From: Rubrobacter calidifluminis
Lineage (GTDB): Bacteria > Actinomycetota > Rubrobacteria > Rubrobacterales > Rubrobacteraceae
Assembly: GCF_028617075.1 (NCBI RefSeq)
Contig: NZ_JAQKGV010000006.1
Location: 62,001 to 126,000 of the forward strand
DNA length: 64,000 bases
Reading direction: 5' to 3'
Position 1 is the stretch's first letter. Each line of letters begins with the position of its first letter. Below are positions 34,094-60,583 of the stretch, one piece after another. Under the pieces are notes generated by a model. The model made no database searches, was not told the origin of the DNA, and worked only from the letters and a program-made list of their open reading frames with translations. The position numbers and the translations under genes are program-made.

Positions 34094-34187
34094 GGGCGGA
34101 CCCGGGGTTTCTCCTCCGGGGTTACGAAACGGCCCCGCTGGTTGAAGAACGTTAAAGAACGGTGCCGCGTCGACCGACAAACGGTAT

Positions 34188-35846
34188 GTGACCGAACGCG
34201 ACGCTTCTGCAGAGACAGCAGTAAAGAGAACCGGGAAGAGGCGGCGCGGGCTCGTCCACGTCCTGGCGGCCTTCACGCTTGTATCCGCGCTGCAGTTTGC
34301 CTTCGGGATGTGGATGGATGGCCGGGGATTTCTTTGGGGGGACGCCCTCAGCCGGGCTACGAGCGCGCTACTGGCGCTCTACGGCACGGATCCTCACCTG
34401 GCCGCCATAGGCTTCGTCTGGATGCCACTGCCCACGCTCGTGGAGCTCGCCTGGGTCTCGATATATCCGCTGTGGCCCGGGGTCGTCTCGAGTGGTTTCG
34501 CCTCCACCCTGACGACGGCGCTGTGTGGAGGGTGTACGGCGGCGCTGCTCATGGCGGCCTCCCGGAGGTTTGGGATCCGTCCATTCATCGGGTGGGCGTT
34601 CGTGCTCGTGGTCTGCCTGGATCCCATGCTCTTCCTTTTCGCCTCCAACGGTATGAGCGAGGGGGTCGCCGCCCCTTTTCTGATCGGCGCCACCGTCTGT
34701 ATCGCGCTGTTCTGGCATACCGGGCAGCGCAGGTATGTGGCGATGGCCGCGCTCGCGCTCGCCCTGGGCTTCGCCTCCCTCTACCAGGCGGTACAGTATG
34801 GCGGCGCCCTTCTGTTGGTGCTGGCGCTCGGCATCCTGTACGGCGACGAGGCCAGACCCTCGACCCCGCAGGGGCGGTGGCGGGCGCTGGAGGCGCTGGG
34901 GTTGCTTCTCATCGTCCCGAGCGTCTACGTGGGCTTTGTGTGGGTGGTGGCGAACTGGACGATAATGGGCGACCCATTATATTTCGCGCACAGCCAGTAC
35001 TCGAATCAGGGGGTGGTGAGCGCATACGCGGGGGCCCGGCTCGCAGCCAGGGCCTCCGGGGACCTCTGGTCGTCTGTGCTCTACGTCGGGGAGCGTACCG
35101 CTCCCTTCCTGATCCCCGCTGTTTTCCTCGTTGTGATCCGGGTACTCGAGGGAAGGTTCAGGGGCCCGGGCACCCTCGCAATAATCCTGCTCGCGCTGAG
35201 CGTGCCGCTCGGAATGATGGTGCCGCAGGTCTACTCTGGCAGTTCTTTCGGGTGGCTGCGCTACTTCATGTATCCGCTGTTCGCGGCGGCTGGATGGGGC
35301 CTGTACGAAATCGCATCCGGGAGGAAGAGGCTGCTGAGCTGCGTGCTGGTCCTTGCGGGGTGGGTCGCCGCCTTCCCGGCTGTGCTGTGGGCGATGGAAA
35401 CCCCTTCCATCGGTCAGGACGAACATCCGGTCATCCGCGCCCTGACTACCGGGGAGGACGCCTCTCAGGTGGGGTTCACGAACTACCTGGAGGATGAGGC
35501 TCCCGTCGCACGCTACGTCGAGGATCGAGTCATGCGGAGGGGAGCCGTTGTCGCCGTGGATGCGTTGCAGGGATGGCCCCTGGCCGCCCAGATGGATCCT
35601 GCAGACCTGGGTCACCTGCTGATCCTCACCCCGGACAGGAGGTTCCAGCGGGCGGTAGCCGAACCGGAGAGGTACCACGTCTCCTATCTCCTCGTGCCCG
35701 ACCCCCGGAAATACCGGGGGGATCTCATAAACCAGACCTACCCGAGCCTTTGGGAGGGGAGACAGCCGGGGTTCGAGCTGGTTGAGAAGTTCCCCGAGAC
35801 GATGCAGGGCTGGCGGCTGTACCGGGTTGAGGAGGGTGGGGCGTGA
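34188..35846 (+). CDS. GT-C type membrane glycosyltransferase (GT39/ArnT-like)
   Basis: 552 aa. About 10-11 membrane helices, with an extracytoplasmic first loop (GRGFLWGDALSRATSALLALY) resembling the Asp-containing loop of polyprenyl-phosphate-sugar transferases, then a C-terminal soluble domain (about 410-552). Such proteins transfer mannose or other sugars from a lipid carrier to proteins or polymers outside. GTG start at 34188 lacks a clear ribosome binding site. Converges on the MshEN glycosyltransferase. Confidence 0.75.
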   Translation: MTERDASAETAVKRTGKRRRGLVHVLAAFTLVSALQFAFGMWMDGRGFLWGDALSRATSALLALYGTDPHLAAIGFVWMPLPTLVELAWVSIYPLWPGVVSSGFASTLTTALCGGCTAALLMAASRRFGIRPFIGWAFVLVVCLDPMLFLFASNGMSEGVAAPFLIGATVCIALFWHTGQRRYVAMAALALALGFASLYQAVQYGGALLLVLALGILYGDEARPSTPQGRWRALEALGLLLIVPSVYVGFVWVVANWTIMGDPLYFAHSQYSNQGVVSAYAGARLAARASGDLWSSVLYVGERTAPFLIPAVFLVVIRVLEGRFRGPGTLAIILLALSVPLGMMVPQVYSGSSFGWLRYFMYPLFAAAGWGLYEIASGRKRLLSCVLVLAGWVAAFPAVLWAMETPSIGQDEHPVIRALTTGEDASQVGFTNYLEDEAPVARYVEDRVMRRGAVVAVDALQGWPLAAQMDPADLGHLLILTPDRRFQRAVAEPERYHVSYLLVPDPRKYRGDLINQTYPSLWEGRQPGFELVEKFPETMQGWRLYRVEEGGA

Positions 35847-35861
35847 TCCGGACGGGCTTCT

Positions 35862-38180
35862 CTAGGAGGGCTGCTCCCCGACGTTCTCAAAGTGCAGCCC
35901 GTGTTCGGTCTTCTGCCAGTAGTGCGGGCGGACGATCAGCTCATAGAGCGCCATATACCCCGCAATGCTCATGAGCAACCAGTAGATCGGGATCAGCAGC
36001 GTGTAGGGCGAGAGGTCGTCCTCTCCCTTGGCCACTGTTCCCATAAGGCCCAGGAAGATGAAGAAGAAGTTCCCGATGAGGAGGCTCGCGAGTGCCAGAT
36101 AGTAGACCGGACCGGGGAACAGCGCGGGAATCCAGCCTGGCCTGAGTAGTATCCAGAGCGCGAGAAGGAGCCAGAAAACGGGCGAGACCAGGACGGTGTA
36201 GATCAGGCCACCCACCGTCGCGAGCAGGTGCAGGGTGTTCTTCGCACCGACTTCCCGGCAGAGCCTGACCGGATGTCGGGTGTGGACGAGGAAGGTCTGC
36301 ATGTAGCCCTTGATCCAGCGCGAACGCTGCCGGAGCCAGTTCTTCAGCTTGCTGTTGGCCTCCTCGTAGGTGGTGGAGTCGAGCATCCTGGTGGTTTTAC
36401 CCATCCTGGCGAGTCGGATGCCGAGGTCGGCGTCCTCGGTGACGTTGTAGGGGTCCCAGCTCATCGTGTCTTTGAGCACGTCCGCCCGGAAGTGATTCGA
36501 GGTGCCGCCCAGCGGTATGGGTGCCTCCATCCTGTGCAAACCGGGCAGGAACATCTCGAACCATGCGGCGTACTCCAGCGAGAACCACCGGGTCAGGATG
36601 TTCTGGCGTGGGTTGTAGTAGTTGAGCTTGGCCTGTATACAGGCCACCTCTTCGCCGCAGTGTTCGAATCCCCACGCCGCCGCCTTGAGTTGTTTCGGGT
36701 CCGGCTGGTCCTCGGCGTCGTAGATGGTGATGAGCTCACCCCGGGCGTACAGCAGACCGTAGAGCATCGCCTTGGGTTTGGTTCTGGGTTCGCCCGGTGG
36801 TACCTTGAGGACCCGCAGCCAGCCCGGCCGCGCACCCTTTTTCGGGACCGCGACCGGCCCGGACGACTCCGGAACCTGGAGCATCCTGAGCCACCCCGGT
36901 TTGTCAACCTCTTCGACTGCCGAGAGGGTCTGTTCGTCGTCCTCCTCGACCAGCAGCAACCCGTCGAGCTTGTGTTTTGGATAGTCCAGCCGAGAGAGTG
37001 CCTCGAAGAGCGAGCGCAGCGTGGAGGGCTTCTCTTTGTAGACCGGCAGTAGCAGCGTGTAGACAGGGAGTGTACGTTCGTCCAGGGAAGCGAGATCCTC
37101 TTCGGTAGGGCTCAGGCTCGATCCGGAACGCCAGCCCTGCCAGGCCGTGTACATCCGATAGGCGCCGTAGGCGACGTAGAGCAGGGTGCCGATCGCCGCG
37201 AGCGTCGCGGCCACGGTGGCGGGGAGCAGGATGATACAGCCCACCAGCGCGGCGAGGATCAGGACCGCCCCCGCCAGCTGGAATCGAGAGAGTCGGTTGC
37301 CGAAGGCGGAGAAATGGGGCGTGCGCTCGAGCAGGCTGGCGACGACCTCGTCCACGTCGCTCCTCGCGTACAGGGCGCTCAGCAACGCCTCTATGGTCTC
37401 CGTGTCGGCGAGCTTCGGCTCGATGGGCCTCCGGAGATAATCCCTTACCGCCGCGACCTTCTCTGACGACGGATCCGCAAAAGCGACGGGGATGGAGCCC
37501 CGGGCTTCGCCGCGGAGAGCCACCGCACGATTCCTGCGTGCCAGTTCCGGGGGGAGCAGGGGAGCGGGACGCTCGGCTGGCGATGTGGAGGGCAGGCCGA
37601 GCTGCTCTGAGAGGACATCTATCAGGGTCCTCGAATCGATAGCACCCTCCGCGAGCAGTATCTCCCCGAGTCTTCCTCCGCTGCGGCGCTGTTCTCGTAG
37701 TGCCAGCAGCAGGTCTTCCTCCCCGATTGCCCCCCGGTCGATAAGCAGCCTCCCCAGACGGCGAAACTTCCGGGCTTCGTCTTCGGCGGGGGGGAAGGCC
37801 GCCGTGAGCAGGGCGTCTATCTCCCTGCCGGGGGCGAGTCGGAGGGGCCTGCTGGAGAGCGCGCCTCCCGGGAGCGGGCCGAATGGATCCGCTAGGACCA
37901 CCTCACCGGACGCGAGCGGGGCCCAGCGCCGGGCTTTGAGCAGCTCCGGTCCCGCGAGACGTGCTGCTTCCAGGTCGAGTTCGCCCCCCTCAAGCGGCCT
38001 GCCAAGCGGGGGAATCCCCGAGGCTTCCGAGAGCACTTCCACCGCGCCGGCGGGACCCAGCTCCTCGATTACCAGCCAGGAAGGATATCCGAGCTCCAGC
38101 CTCCTCCTGGCCCGCTCCACGTCACGTATGATCCCACGTTCGATGAGTCCCTCGATTAGCTCCCGCACGCTCTCCCTCAA
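35862..38180 (-). CDS. MshEN (cyclic-di-GMP receptor) domain fused to membrane GT2 glycosyltransferase
   Basis: 772 aa. Residues 1-140 form a degenerate GspE-N-like region. Residues 141-164 and 170-193 are two 24-residue motifs of the pattern RLGx6Gx6Lx3Lx2Q separated by exactly 5 residues, the published MshEN signature that binds cyclic-di-GMP. Membrane helices at about 300-345 precede the GT2 catalytic domain with DAEDQPD (485-500 region), TEDADLG and QRSRW (QxxRW), then four C-terminal helices forming the polymer channel. The layout resembles NfrB/BcsA-type synthases, so cyclic-di-GMP-activated secretion of a polysaccharide is predicted. TTG start. An internal repeat lies at 427-466. Confidence 0.88.
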   Translation of the reverse strand: MRESVRELIEGLIERGIIRDVERARRRLELGYPSWLVIEELGPAGAVEVLSEASGIPPLGRPLEGGELDLEAARLAGPELLKARRWAPLASGEVVLADPFGPLPGGALSSRPLRLAPGREIDALLTAAFPPAEDEARKFRRLGRLLIDRGAIGEEDLLLALREQRRSGGRLGEILLAEGAIDSRTLIDVLSEQLGLPSTSPAERPAPLLPPELARRNRAVALRGEARGSIPVAFADPSSEKVAAVRDYLRRPIEPKLADTETIEALLSALYARSDVDEVVASLLERTPHFSAFGNRLSRFQLAGAVLILAALVGCIILLPATVAATLAAIGTLLYVAYGAYRMYTAWQGWRSGSSLSPTEEDLASLDERTLPVYTLLLPVYKEKPSTLRSLFEALSRLDYPKHKLDGLLLVEEDDEQTLSAVEEVDKPGWLRMLQVPESSGPVAVPKKGARPGWLRVLKVPPGEPRTKPKAMLYGLLYARGELITIYDAEDQPDPKQLKAAAWGFEHCGEEVACIQAKLNYYNPRQNILTRWFSLEYAAWFEMFLPGLHRMEAPIPLGGTSNHFRADVLKDTMSWDPYNVTEDADLGIRLARMGKTTRMLDSTTYEEANSKLKNWLRQRSRWIKGYMQTFLVHTRHPVRLCREVGAKNTLHLLATVGGLIYTVLVSPVFWLLLALWILLRPGWIPALFPGPVYYLALASLLIGNFFFIFLGLMGTVAKGEDDLSPYTLLIPIYWLLMSIAGYMALYELIVRPHYWQKTEHGLHFENVGEQPS

Positions 38181-43670: not shown

Positions 43671-43790
43671 CCGGATTGCAGGTAGAGGCGTAGAGCCCCG
43701 CTTCCCGTACGTGGGCACCTGGGACGGGGGGAGCCAGTGGTGCAACCGGCTACCTGGAACGTGCGGTGTGGTTCCAGGTGGTCTTTGTTT
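43671..43790 (+). promoter_or_regulatory. structured 5' leader with terminator-like hairpin (riboswitch-like, unassigned)
   Basis: CCGGATTGCA (43671-43680) can pair with TGCAACCGG (43741-43749), closing a 60-nt GC-rich loop that has its own CCCCG/CGGGG and CCC/GGG helices. Directly downstream, ACCTGGAAC (43752-43760) and GTTCCAGGT (43771-43779) form a 9-bp hairpin followed by GGTCTTTGTTTT. Aptamer-plus-terminator spacing resembles a riboswitch, but it fits none of the classes I know. It sits about 130 bp before the secreted protein gene. Confidence 0.4.
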
Positions 43791-43916: not shown

Positions 43917-44522
43917 GTGTCCGTAACCAGAGGGATGCATGTGAAGGTTTTGTGCGTGGCGGTTCTGGCCGGGCTACTGGTACTCGGGCTGTGGGCCAGG
44001 GGGGCTTATGCTGACTCGGGTAGCGTGACCGTCACCGCATCGAACGCCGCCAAATTCAGCCTCTCGCTCTCGACCAACTCGGTCGACTTTGGGAACGTGG
44101 ACCCGAGCGGTGCGCCCTCCAACCAGCAGGATGTCACCGCCTATGTCGATGGGGCTAACGGAGCCTACTACGTGAAGTCGATCTCGGGGTACGCAGAGAC
44201 GGTGAAGGTGAGCTCCAACGCACCCTGGAGCGGGTCGGTCTCCGCAGCGGAGAACACCGGAACCTCCGGGATGAAGATAGCCAGCGGGAGCCTGAGGTGG
44301 GCTCTTGGGGACATAAGCAGCCTGGCTCAGGCGCAGGGTGCGACGCCCTTCAGCACCACGCCGGACACCAGTGTTTTCAACACGGCGAGCTCCTGCTCGA
44401 GCGGGGCGACGCTGCAGGCGGGCAGCTGCACCTACAACTTTGACTATGCGCTGAGGGTTCTGTGGACCAACGCTCCCGGCACCTTCAGTTCCGTCGTTAC
44501 CTACACTGTGACGACCAGATAG
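43917..44522 (+). CDS. secreted protein of unknown function
   Basis: 201 aa, GTG start with GGAGGGGAG. Sec signal peptide (hydrophobic about 9-28, cleavage after AYA near residue 32). The mature part is Ser/Thr/Ala/Gly-rich and beta-strand-like, with SVTVTASNAAKFSLSLS, VDFGNVDPSG and a late C-x14-C-type cysteine pair (SSCSSG...GSCTYNF). It resembles surface or spore-coat beta-sandwich proteins in style only. No sortase or membrane anchor. No family assigned. Confidence 0.7.
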   Translation: MSVTRGMHVKVLCVAVLAGLLVLGLWARGAYADSGSVTVTASNAAKFSLSLSTNSVDFGNVDPSGAPSNQQDVTAYVDGANGAYYVKSISGYAETVKVSSNAPWSGSVSAAENTGTSGMKIASGSLRWALGDISSLAQAQGATPFSTTPDTSVFNTASSCSSGATLQAGSCTYNFDYALRVLWTNAPGTFSSVVTYTVTTR

Positions 44523-57171: not shown

Positions 57172-57873
57172 ATGGGCAGCTCTGGCGAGAAGAGTGGGGC
57201 CACGATAAGGGTCCTGGTGGCGGACGACCACGACATCGTCAGGTTCGGGCTCAGGAAGATGCTTGAGGCCGAGCCGGGGATCGAGGTAGTGGGGGAGGCG
57301 TCGAGCGGCGTGGAGGCGCTCGAACTCTGCCGCTCCCTGAAGCCGGATATTGTGGTGATGGACATCAGGCTCCCCGGCGTGGACGGGATCACCGCGACCC
57401 GCCTCATCAAGCGCGAGTTTCCCAACACCGCCGTCCTGATACTGACGGCTTATGAGAGTACCGAGTATCTTGTCGAGTCCGTACGCGCCGGGGCTGCCGG
57501 CTATCTCCTCAAGGAGAAGGCGGTCCAGCGCCTTCCCGGGGCCGTGAGGCGGGTTATGAACGGGGAGTCTCCGCTCGACCAGGAGCTCGCCATGCGGGTT
57601 CTGAAGGGCATCTCGGAGAAGAGAGGGGCGCACTCACCGGACGGGGATGAGGTTGTCCGTACCGGCTTTCTGCTGGAGAAACTAACCGACAGGGAACGGG
57701 AGATACTCACGCTGGTAGCGATGGGCCTGAGCAACCAGGAGATCGCCGAGAGGTTGTACCTGAGCGTCGGCACCGTCAAATCCCACGTGCACCGCATAAT
57801 CTCCAAGCTCGGCGTCTCCGACAGAACCCAGGCCGCCGTGCTCGCCGTCCAGCTCGGTATGGTCTCTACGTAG
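57172..57873 (+). CDS. NarL/FixJ-type response regulator (orphan)
   Basis: 233 aa. Receiver with acidic ADDHD, phosphoacceptor Asp64 (VVMDIRLPG), Thr in ILTAYES and Lys in YLLKEKA; C-terminal LuxR HTH (LTDREREILTLVAMGLSNQEIAERL...KSHVHRI, quoted in part). All receiver residues are intact, so phosphorylation is expected. No histidine kinase is adjacent. ATG start. Confidence 0.92.
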   Translation: MGSSGEKSGATIRVLVADDHDIVRFGLRKMLEAEPGIEVVGEASSGVEALELCRSLKPDIVVMDIRLPGVDGITATRLIKREFPNTAVLILTAYESTEYLVESVRAGAAGYLLKEKAVQRLPGAVRRVMNGESPLDQELAMRVLKGISEKRGAHSPDGDEVVRTGFLLEKLTDREREILTLVAMGLSNQEIAERLYLSVGTVKSHVHRIISKLGVSDRTQAAVLAVQLGMVST

Positions 57874-58141: not shown

Positions 58142-59275
58142 CTAGATGGGGTCTTCCTCGAAAAGGTGCGTACCCCAGCTTTCAGGCTTCCGGAAGAGCA
58201 TGTCCCAGAGACACTTCACGTAGATGACCTGTTGGAAAAGATCGTAGGCGAATTCGATCACGAGCACCGAGGCAATGGCCACCTCCACATACCCGGCCCG
58301 CCACACGGTCACGATCCTCTCCAATAGGAATATCCCTGCCAGGCCCACCCAGAACGGGCGGAAGCTGACCTCACCAACCGCGATGGAGAGGGCCGTAACC
58401 AGGACGAGGAGAAAGACCGCCAGCGTTCCCACACCCATGAAAGCCTGCCGCAGGATGTACGGCAGCGTGGTGGGCGTGATCCCGTATGCGCGGAGGTTTT
58501 CGAAGGCACCCCGCTGCCATCTTACGCGCTGTCGCCAGAGCCTGCTCCAGCTTGGCATCACGTCGGTCATCACGGTGCACTCTCTGGGCGACACACAGCG
58601 CCAGCCGAGGGACTTCAGGGCCAGCGTGAGCTCGTTGTCCTCGGTCAGGGCAAGGGTGTCGTACACCTGCCTGATCCCCCCCGGTATCCTGCCTTCGGCC
58701 CTGGCTGAGGCGACCTCTCTCAGGGCCTCGGCCCTGAACAGGGCTCCGGTCCCGGTTATCACCTTGGCCTTCGCCCCACCACGGGCGATCTCACGCGCGT
58801 ACCTGACGTACTCGGCGTGTTGTAACCTCTCCACCAGGCTGGAGCGGCGTGCGGCGAGGAAGATTCCCCCGACCGCCCCGATCCTGTCGTCCTCAGCCAT
58901 TCTGGCGAGCGCCACCTCCACGAAGCGCTCACCCAGCTCCGAGTCTCCGTCCATGACCAGGACGAAATCCGCCTCGCCAAGGGATGGCAGTACCTTCGCG
59001 AGCGCCTGGTTGAGGGCTCCGGCCTTCTTCTGCGTGTTGCCGGAGGTGAAGAAGACCTCGGCTCCCTCCTCAAGCGCGATCTCCGGGGTGCGGTCCGTGC
59101 AGTTGTCAGCGATGACCACGATCCTGTCCGGAACCCGGCTCTGGTTCTTCAGAGAGGCGACCGCCCGGGCTATGAGCTCCTCCTCGTCGTGGGCCGGTAT
59201 GAGGGCGACGACAGAGGCTTCAGCCTCTTCGATCGCAGGATAATCTGTCTCTTGTGGATGAATCTCTAGTCTCAC
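58142..59275 (-). CDS. membrane GT2 glycosyltransferase
   Basis: 377 aa. GT-A domain with VVALIPAHDEE, VLVMDGDSELG (DxD), TEDNELTLALKSLG and QRVRW (QxxRW, processive-synthase motif), then three to four membrane helices. Resembles N-acetylglucosaminyl- or glucan-synthase-like GT2 enzymes that make and export a polymer. GTG start without clear ribosome binding site. Divergent from the cyclic-di-GMP riboswitch and the GH26-like hydrolase, which makes a joint exopolysaccharide function likely. Confidence 0.87.
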   Translation of the reverse strand: MRLEIHPQETDYPAIEEAEASVVALIPAHDEEELIARAVASLKNQSRVPDRIVVIADNCTDRTPEIALEEGAEVFFTSGNTQKKAGALNQALAKVLPSLGEADFVLVMDGDSELGERFVEVALARMAEDDRIGAVGGIFLAARRSSLVERLQHAEYVRYAREIARGGAKAKVITGTGALFRAEALREVASARAEGRIPGGIRQVYDTLALTEDNELTLALKSLGWRCVSPRECTVMTDVMPSWSRLWRQRVRWQRGAFENLRAYGITPTTLPYILRQAFMGVGTLAVFLLVLVTALSIAVGEVSFRPFWVGLAGIFLLERIVTVWRAGYVEVAIASVLVIEFAYDLFQQVIYVKCLWDMLFRKPESWGTHLFEEDPI

Positions 59276-59379
59276 GGGAATTCAAGGTTAGTCGAGGGCC
59301 GGCCGTCTGCCATCTATCGATGGTTTATTCGCCTTCTATCCAGGGATTAAAGTTCGCGATTCCCCGGGCCGAAAACACC

Positions 59380-59465
59380 TTTGCAACCGAAAAGGCAAAC
59401 CCGTCGCGAGGCGGGGACGCAAAGCCACGGGTCTCCCCCGGGAGTCAGCCGGGCTGCCGAAGTGA
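59380..59465 (+). ncRNA. cyclic-di-GMP-I (GEMM-I) riboswitch aptamer
   Basis: Contains the invariant parts of the class in order: GGCAAACC (59394-59401), a P2 hairpin CCCGTC-GCGA-GGCGGG with GNRA tetraloop, GGGACGCAAAGCC (59414-59426), the P3 arm ACGGG..., and the closing GCCGGGCTGCCGA (59448-59460). GNRA loop plus GACGCAAAGCC is diagnostic of GEMM-I. It lies 66 bp before the GH26-like start codon on the same strand. Confidence 0.92.
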
Positions 59466-59485
59466 GCCTGTACGGCGCGGGCCTG

Positions 59486-59525
59486 CGCGTTCCTCCTCTG
59501 GGCGGGTTCTGTTAGAGGAGGCGCG
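59486..59525 (+). promoter_or_regulatory. expression platform hiding the ribosome binding site
   Basis: CGCG-TT-CCTCCTCT (59486-59499) pairs with AGAGGAGG-CGCG (59514-59525), 12 bp with a TT bulge. The right arm is the Shine-Dalgarno sequence of the gene starting at 59531. This suggests translational control by the upstream aptamer; the sign (on or off) cannot be read from sequence. Confidence 0.75.
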
Positions 59526-59530
59526 GAGAG

Positions 59531-60583
59531 GTGGAGGGTACAGGGAGAGTTGCCGGTGCATCCTGCGATAACGCCTGGGGTATATACTGCCGGGACAGCA
59601 GGCTGGACCGACGGGAGTTTGTGAGGTTGGGGACCGGGATGCTGATGGCTGGCATTCTATCGATGACCTCTTTCGGGTTTCTGGCCGACGGGGATGCCGA
59701 GGCCGGGGGCCTCAGCCCCCGCATAAAGCTCGGCGCCTTCACAGCGGGTCTGCCATGGGGCTTCGAAAACATCGATTCATACGCCGCTCTCACCGGGCAC
59801 GCCCCCGCCATAATCCACTGGTTCCAGGATTGGAAGATGGACTTCGACCCTTCCTACCTGGATCAGGCATCTTCGAGGGGCGCGATGCCGCTCATCACCT
59901 GGGAACCGTGGGATTGGGACGGGAGCGAGAAGAACCAGCCTCGCTATTCTCTGAGGCGCATACTTTCCGGTGCACACGACGCTTACATCATGAGCTGGGC
60001 GCGGGGAGCTGCGGCCTGGGGCAGGAGGTTCTACCTGCGCTTCGCGCCAGAGATGAATGGCGACTGGCGTCCCTGGAGTCCGGGGGTCAACGGTAACACC
60101 GCGCGCCAGTATGTGGAGGTCTGGAGAAAGCTCCACTCCATGTTCCGCCGCGCCGGTGCGACGAACGTACGCTGGGTGTGGTGTCCGATAGTACACTACG
60201 CGGGCTCCACGCCGTTCGAGAAGGTCTTCCCCGGCGACTCCTACGTCGACTGGATCGGGCTCGACGGCTACAACTGGGGCAGCCTGCACCCCTGGTCGGG
60301 ATGGCAGAGCGCGGGTGAGATCTTCTCGTGCTCCTACCGGATGGCAGCCAGACTGAGCAGTAAACCCATCATGATCCCTGAGGTAGCCTCGACCGAGCTT
60401 GGCGGGAACAAGGCACGCTGGATTGAGAGGGCGCTTCTCGAGGAGATCCCATCGCGTTTCCCGAGGGTGAAGGCCATCGTGTGGTTCGACGCGGACAAGG
60501 AGACTGACTGGCGCGTGAACTCGTCCTCCGCCTCCCTGGAGGCCTGGCGTCGGGCCGCATCCAGCCCTCTTTACCGCCGTTAG
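59531..60583 (+). CDS. Tat-exported GH26-like glycoside hydrolase
   Basis: 350 aa, GTG start 9 bp after AGAGGAGG. Twin-arginine signal (RLDRREFVRLGTGMLMAGIL, 24-43), then a TIM barrel with LRFAPEMNGDW (acid/base Glu174) and IPEVAST (nucleophile Glu284), the pattern of GH26 endo-mannanase/glucanase relatives. Under control of a cyclic-di-GMP riboswitch and next to a membrane GT2, so it most likely edits or releases the secreted polysaccharide. Confidence 0.87.
   Translation: MEGTGRVAGASCDNAWGIYCRDSRLDRREFVRLGTGMLMAGILSMTSFGFLADGDAEAGGLSPRIKLGAFTAGLPWGFENIDSYAALTGHAPAIIHWFQDWKMDFDPSYLDQASSRGAMPLITWEPWDWDGSEKNQPRYSLRRILSGAHDAYIMSWARGAAAWGRRFYLRFAPEMNGDWRPWSPGVNGNTARQYVEVWRKLHSMFRRAGATNVRWVWCPIVHYAGSTPFEKVFPGDSYVDWIGLDGYNWGSLHPWSGWQSAGEIFSCSYRMAARLSSKPIMIPEVASTELGGNKARWIERALLEEIPSRFPRVKAIVWFDADKETDWRVNSSSASLEAWRRAASSPLYRR

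Follow-up and report, generated by a model that had tools for sequence, protein, structure and literature searches.

Introduction

In Clostridioides difficile, a c-di-GMP riboswitch lies upstream of the flagellar/SigD operon, and c-di-GMP is repressing there, which brings a c-di-GMP riboswitch and a sigma-28-type factor together in a single circuit. In Rubrobacter radiotolerans, the structure of the (RsiG)2-(c-di-GMP)2-WhiG complex has been solved, and there is experimental support for the RsiG-c-di-GMP-WhiG lock and for promoters of the form TAAA/GCCGATAA (PMC8325347). WhiG uses the sigma-28 promoter sequence, and WhiG-type promoters with mapped starts precede pilus and c-di-GMP turnover genes in that organism (PMC8325347). 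The word riboswitch is absent from that paper. In the open literature that we searched, no paper joining the RsiG-WhiG and riboswitch layers was found; a review treats them apart, and searches for a c-di-GMP riboswitch together with a glycoside hydrolase, Rubrobacter or WhiG returned nothing linking the layers.

Here we analyzed a 64,000-nucleotide stretch of Rubrobacter calidifluminis DNA, referred to as the window, in which a GH26 glucanase gene appears to be a double-gated c-di-GMP target, controlled by WhiG/RsiG at transcription and by an OFF riboswitch at translation; on the sequence evidence, we consider this reading somewhat better than even. Like the circuit of C. difficile, it would combine a c-di-GMP riboswitch with a sigma-28-type factor. 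There, however, it is the sigma factor operon that is under riboswitch control, whereas here the sigma factor would transcribe the riboswitch and would itself be under separate control by c-di-GMP. With the RsiG-(c-di-GMP)-WhiG systems of R. radiotolerans and Streptomyces, the genome shares the sigma/anti-sigma pair and the promoter sequence, and the targets include pilins and GGDEF genes here as in R. radiotolerans (PMC8325347). What the window would add to that system is an action of c-di-GMP on the transcript, and secreted glucanases would join the targets.

Results

The GH26 leader contains a c-di-GMP-I-GGC aptamer

The features of the locus are as follows.

57172-57873, plus strand: LuxR-type response regulator, a conserved neighbor (60-64% identical neighbor in L086, L087 and L088)
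58142-59275, minus strand: divergent GT2 glycosyltransferase with TED and QxxRW motifs (PF13641/PF00535; homologues in relatives)
59348-59375, plus strand: putative sigma-28/WhiG-type promoter (-35 TAAAG at 59348-59352, 16-nt spacer, -10 CCGAAAA at 59369-59375)
59385-59462, plus strand: c-di-GMP-I-GGC riboswitch aptamer (RF03167; Rfam covariance model, 69.2 bits)
59408-59420, plus strand: aptamer strand GAGGCGGGGACGC (3' side of P2 and core), which can pair with the anti-Shine-Dalgarno arm
59486-59499, plus strand: anti-Shine-Dalgarno arm, the putative switching strand, CGCGUUCCUCCUCU (from leader sequences and folding energies)
59514-59525, plus strand: Shine-Dalgarno arm AGAGGAGGCGCG (Shine-Dalgarno AGGAGG at 59516-59521; equivalents in L086, L087 and L088)
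59531-60583, plus strand: predicted Lic26A-like GH26 glucanase with a putative Tat signal; starts at GTG, with Glu174 and Glu284 predicted to be catalytic (PF02156; Lic26A 2bv9)

The aptamer matches RF03167 over the full length of the Rfam covariance model (model positions 1-80; E 2.7e-14), with its score above the gathering score of 59, and a covariance-model search of the whole genome found no other c-di-GMP-I-GGC copy. The window sequence contains the aptamer parts GGCAAACC (59394-59401) and GACGCAAAGCC (59416-59426), the closing part GCTGCCGA (59453-59460) and the P2 loop GCGA (59406-59409). An earlier note on this DNA had called a cyclic-di-GMP riboswitch, and all the sequence parts that it quoted, as well as its GNRA-type loop, were found. 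The identity of the aptamer as RF03167 and the protein families of the locus are firm. The aptamer is sense-oriented in the leader, with the GTG of the GH26 gene 68 nt downstream of its end, and this layout is repeated in L086, L087 and L088. Whereas the RF03167 model describes the aptamer only, the window adds a putative WhiG promoter in front of it and an anti-Shine-Dalgarno linker that may invade its core.

One possibility is that the aptamer binds a different ligand, for example 3',3'-cGAMP, in which case the two layers would answer different signals. Rare c-di-GMP-I relatives with a specificity changed to c-AMP-GMP are known (PMC7266159). Experimental work on RF03167, including ligand-binding data, was not found in the open literature searched. 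However, the G at the guanine-contacting position, which by alignment we take to be G20 of Vc2, is retained in the window aptamer together with the core A and the closing C, and the genome encodes nine GGDEF domains. We therefore regard a different ligand as very improbable.

The window also contains the sole c-di-GMP-II riboswitch of the genome (RF01786, 69.8 bits; 43675-43760, plus strand), separated by about 16 kb from the genome's one c-di-GMP-I-GGC aptamer. The gene after it (43917-44522) encodes a secreted 201-aa protein without a Pfam match, and no WhiG-type promoter was found for this riboswitch at up to two mismatches.

The aptamer is preceded by a probable WhiG-type promoter

The sequence TAAAGTTCGCGATTCCCCGGGCCGAAAA at 59348-59375 ends ten bases before the aptamer. 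It conforms to the WhiG consensus form that we tested, TAAA(G)-N16-(G)CCGATAA, with one mismatch; scored against TAAAG-N16-CCGATAA, this is one mismatch in 12 with a spacer of 16, a T-to-A change in the -10 element. The earlier note assigned control to the aptamer and a hairpin and missed the main feature, a probable WhiG-type promoter with a sigma factor that is predicted to be controlled by c-di-GMP.

To place this site in context, we used a comparative set of about 120 aptamers with their upstream regions from relatives, for which several genomes are fragmented assemblies and start codons were picked by rule. Within the Rubrobacteraceae, 27 of 34 distinct upstream regions from genera g1, g2, g3, g9 and g11 carried a site with at most one mismatch in 12; no such site occurred in 1700 dinucleotide shuffles, on the opposite strand or in 35 downstream regions. 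Half were exact. Other families of the phylum had sites with at most one mismatch in 9 of 36 cases versus 4 of 1800 shuffles, and with at most two mismatches in 22 of 36 versus 25 of 1800. The presence of a WhiG-type promoter before the aptamer is thus strongly supported by comparison. The distance from the -10 box to the aptamer had a median of 12 nt. In the majority of cases, 23 of 40, the -10 box ends 7-13 nt upstream of the aptamer, so that transcripts are expected to begin with the aptamer or only a few bases away from it, and the transcript of the window gene is predicted to start at the first bases of the aptamer.

Genus g12 of the same family behaved differently: a WhiG promoter preceded the riboswitch in only 1 of 46 cases, and a TAnnnT box was present before the aptamer in 32 of 46, with about 21% expected. 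The single exception, L152, is situated just past a WhiG-type gene that is encoded on the opposite strand.

Elsewhere in the window, a second WhiG-like promoter (34153-34180, plus strand; TAAAG-N16-CCGACAA, one mismatch) is directly followed by a gene for a 552-aa membrane protein without a Pfam match (34188-35846).

The riboswitch looks like an added layer on the WhiG regulon

WhiG is encoded in the genome (TIGR02479, 225 bits against a cut-off of 189.6) in the gene order dprA-whiG-rpsB, its neighbors being dprA- and rpsB-like. The genome also encodes RsiG, an 81-aa protein with an exact single c-di-GMP motif, E-x3-S-x2-R-x3-Q-x3-D, which matches the RsiG structure of R. radiotolerans (7lq4) with an E value of 1.3e-17; RsiG is present in 34 of 39 genomes of the family. 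Exact WhiG promoters were found nine times in the genome and not at all with a reversed-pattern control. They precede pilin-like genes (L131, L132 and L139), a GGDEF gene on contig C7 and, at L136, the gene of a beta-helix protein that is 50% identical to the protein of L091. In two congeners (L091 and L092) the beta-helix gene has both promoter and aptamer, while in the window genome it has the promoter without the aptamer, which suggests that the riboswitch layer was gained or lost recently. Because L136 has its WhiG promoter without an aptamer, the riboswitch looks like an added layer on the WhiG regulon.

These data bear on the possibility that the RNA alone senses c-di-GMP and that the WhiG-like motif is coincidental or used by another sigma factor. 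Such a reading could draw on the T-to-A change in the window -10 (CCGAAAA) and on the use of TAnnnT-type -10 boxes by g12 as a whole genus; that single departure from the consensus, and a genus that keeps the riboswitch without the WhiG promoter, also count against our model. The reading is difficult to reconcile, however, with the frequency of the motif before homologous aptamers against its absence from shuffles and flanking controls, or with its exact copies before pilins and a GGDEF protein in this genome, and we consider it improbable.

At least one RF03167 copy was found in 65 of 119 genomes searched, with a maximum of 18 in one genome. WhiG and RsiG occur without RF03167 in G005, G009, G017 and G020, four nearly complete genomes from related genera. 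The first genes after the aptamers encode GH26, GH16, right-handed beta-helix, subtilase, RTX-repeat and CAP-domain proteins, and type IV pilins follow RF03167 aptamers in other families; the recognizable genes served by the aptamers code mostly for exported or surface proteins. We think it likely that basal Actinomycetota have a conserved double lock, in which WhiG promoters drive transcripts with c-di-GMP riboswitches and the regulon comprises secreted glycanases, proteases, adhesive proteins and pilins.

In g12, RF03167 has greatly expanded in G025, G029 and G035, each of which carries between 11 and 18 copies. These lie before subtilases and other exported proteins, and most have TAnnnT-type promoters. 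By eye, aptamers at four g12 loci (L106, L157, L167 and L183) precede genes for sigma-factor-like proteins; in G021 and G025, the distance between aptamers and whiG-type genes is about 2 kb or less.

The anti-Shine-Dalgarno arm has two predicted partners

Downstream of the aptamer, CGCG-UU-CCUCCUCU (59486-59499) pairs with the Shine-Dalgarno arm to form a hairpin of 12 bp, interrupted by a UU bulge, with a computed energy of -21.4 kcal/mol, and the Shine-Dalgarno sequence lies inside the stem, 9 nt before the GTG at 59531. This confirms the 12-bp masking hairpin of the earlier note at 59486-59525, and the hairpin recurs in orthologues. As the regulator that the earlier note took it for, it does hold the Shine-Dalgarno, but it would not be the switch alone, since its 5' arm has a second potential partner in the aptamer core. 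We regard the hairpin as real on the evidence of its recurrence in orthologues, not of its energy: whole-leader free-energy z-scores were not unusual because the region is very G+C-rich, and whole-leader folding energy was rejected as evidence since it was not significant. We also rejected a terminator as the expression platform, as there is no U-tract and the single weak terminator-like match was at chance level. An anti-Shine-Dalgarno strand upstream of the aptamer, acting through an extended P1 (by eye in L094 and L097), reached p ≤ 0.05 in 6 of 71, which is no enrichment, and was dropped.

The sequence GCGUUCC is invariant in all four GH26 leaders of the family, although their Shine-Dalgarno arms differ; its UU is bulged out of the window hairpin, with a G-U pair in L086, and it is conserved as if held by a second partner. 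In the window, the anti-Shine-Dalgarno arm can form a 12-bp switch helix with GAGGCGGGGACGC (-19.4 kcal/mol). Dual partners of the arm were found in four leaders (window, L088, L086 and L095), in which the helix with the Shine-Dalgarno arm has -20.4 to -21.4 kcal/mol and the mutually exclusive helix with the GGCGGGGACGC strand of the aptamer has 11-13 bp and -17.5 to -26.8 kcal/mol. When the RNA is ended after the arm, the switch helix is favored over the native aptamer fold by 2.0, 1.6, 4.0 and 13.2 kcal/mol, respectively. In the full-length ligand-free RNA, the window and L088 favor the Shine-Dalgarno hairpin over the switch helix by about 6-8 kcal/mol, with L086 close to balance and L095 on the side of the invading helix. 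Since the full-length hairpin is favored without ligand, the ON state would need kinetic control or help from the ribosome.

A dual-complement test over all 34 long-linker loci, not hand-picked, gave p ≤ 0.05 for 7 of 34 (binomial p 0.0013). The window reached p = 0.02, with only p = 0.09 for complementarity to the aptamer core in a one-sided test, and L086 p = 0.13-0.15; the Fisher p of 6e-6 for five loci chosen after inspection carries selection bias. Many sister riboswitches are without such a linker. No more than 20 nt separate the aptamer from the predicted start codon at 14 of the 37 loci from WhiG-type genera and at 25 of the 46 from g12; with so short a leader, ligand folding could hide the Shine-Dalgarno directly. 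A sequence copy of the core is present in L095: between about 100 and 145 nt from the start of the aptamer, the Shine-Dalgarno arm GGGGACGCAUG duplicates GGGGACGCAAAG of the aptamer core, and a single linker strand, UUUGCGUCCCUGCC, is complementary to both.

That the arm could form either helix, the one closing the ribosome site or the one in the aptamer core, favors an OFF switch. The opposite RNA sign would keep both layers but have the ligand open the Shine-Dalgarno (ON); as WhiG would need low c-di-GMP and the riboswitch some of it, the gene would be expressed only in a transient or intermediate window of c-di-GMP and the circuit would become an incoherent feed-forward pulse. Without ligand, the Shine-Dalgarno of the full-length RNA is already closed (0.02 unpaired in the window, 0.0 in L088), and the ligand would therefore have to open it to matter thermodynamically. 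Yet enforcing the native aptamer leaves it closed (0.12 and 0.0 unpaired), and in the window and L086 a clear opening was computed for the switch helix only, a state incompatible with the folded aptamer. We hold an ON switch to be rather doubtful. Most simply, the RNA would act as a co-transcriptional OFF switch, in which the ligand-locked aptamer would free the arm to close the Shine-Dalgarno, and OFF is probably the sign of this riboswitch.

The gene encodes a predicted Lic26A-like glucanase

The open reading frame at 59531-60583 matches PF02156 (33.6 bits against a cut-off of 20.2) and thus belongs to GH26. Residues 63-344 of its product align to the GH26 lichenase Lic26A of Clostridium thermocellum (CelH; 2bv9) with an E value of 7.7e-57, and Glu174 and Glu284 align with Glu109 and Glu222, the catalytic residues of Lic26A. 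Based on this alignment, a beta-1,3-1,4-glucanase is more likely than a mannanase. The GH26-like hydrolase of the earlier note keeps its family, with the glucanase Lic26A rather than a mannanase as its closest likeness. In contrast to Lic26A, the window protein has a putative Tat signal, no further domain and a riboswitch leader; its glucanase activity is predicted. The twin-arginine motif DRREFVRLG is visible at the N-terminus, which would fit a Tat-type glycosidase with predicted export, as had been claimed; the motif was recognized by eye, and Pfam TAT_signal was above cut-off only in the orthologue L088. The closest named relatives of the protein include a Rubrobacteraceae bacterium and an unclassified actinobacterium. 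The GH26 gene was found in only four genomes of the family, in all of which an RF03167 aptamer lies ahead of it. In two more distant families (L089 and L090), an RF03167 aptamer also precedes a GH26 gene, at about 37% identity.

The divergent synthase gene proposed earlier was confirmed as a conserved GT2 gene whose synthase role is predicted: a homologue adjoins GH26 in L086, L087 and L088 at 36-38% identity, and its TED and QxxRW motifs, found by eye, suggest a processive synthase. We dropped the naming of its polymer, as the PDB match, to a chondroitin synthase, was weak (E 0.00067). The proposed choice between keeping and trimming the matrix by c-di-GMP is plausible.

Further upstream in the window, a 772-aa GT2 synthase (35862-38180, minus strand) has an N-terminal MshEN domain, a domain that binds c-di-GMP, and two RLGxxL..G....Lx..Q motifs are visible in it. 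It is likely a c-di-GMP-activated polymer synthase. High c-di-GMP favoring polymer synthesis and low c-di-GMP favoring trimming would fit this arrangement.

Discussion

In our working model, c-di-GMP would act on the GH26 gene at two gates. At the first, the promoter would be read by WhiG, which RsiG would keep inactive at high c-di-GMP. At the second, the aptamer would stand at the very 5' end of the transcript or a few bases from it. With c-di-GMP bound, P2 and the core would be locked, the linker arm GCGUUCCUCCU would pair with the Shine-Dalgarno and translation would be off; without ligand, the same arm, made before the Shine-Dalgarno, could instead invade the core of the aptamer at GAGGCGGGGACGC, so that ribosomes keep access to their site. 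The glucanase would thereby be silenced twice at high c-di-GMP, and when the messenger drops, WhiG would be set free and the message opened, along with the pilin genes. If the riboswitch is OFF, the two gates would form a coherent double lock in which the riboswitch could stop messages that have already been made. We infer the start site, ligand binding, OFF direction, kinetic order and substrate in this model.

The double-gate circuit would assign RF03167 a likely function. The RsiG-WhiG lock and class I riboswitches, both well-studied c-di-GMP receptors, appear here in series on shared genes in many actinobacteria. If true, this would provide a circuit for asking whether double reading sharpens the response, speeds shut-off or makes a pulse, and the WhiG targets of the Rubrobacteraceae, known as pili and c-di-GMP enzymes, would widen to secreted glucanases and other surface proteins.
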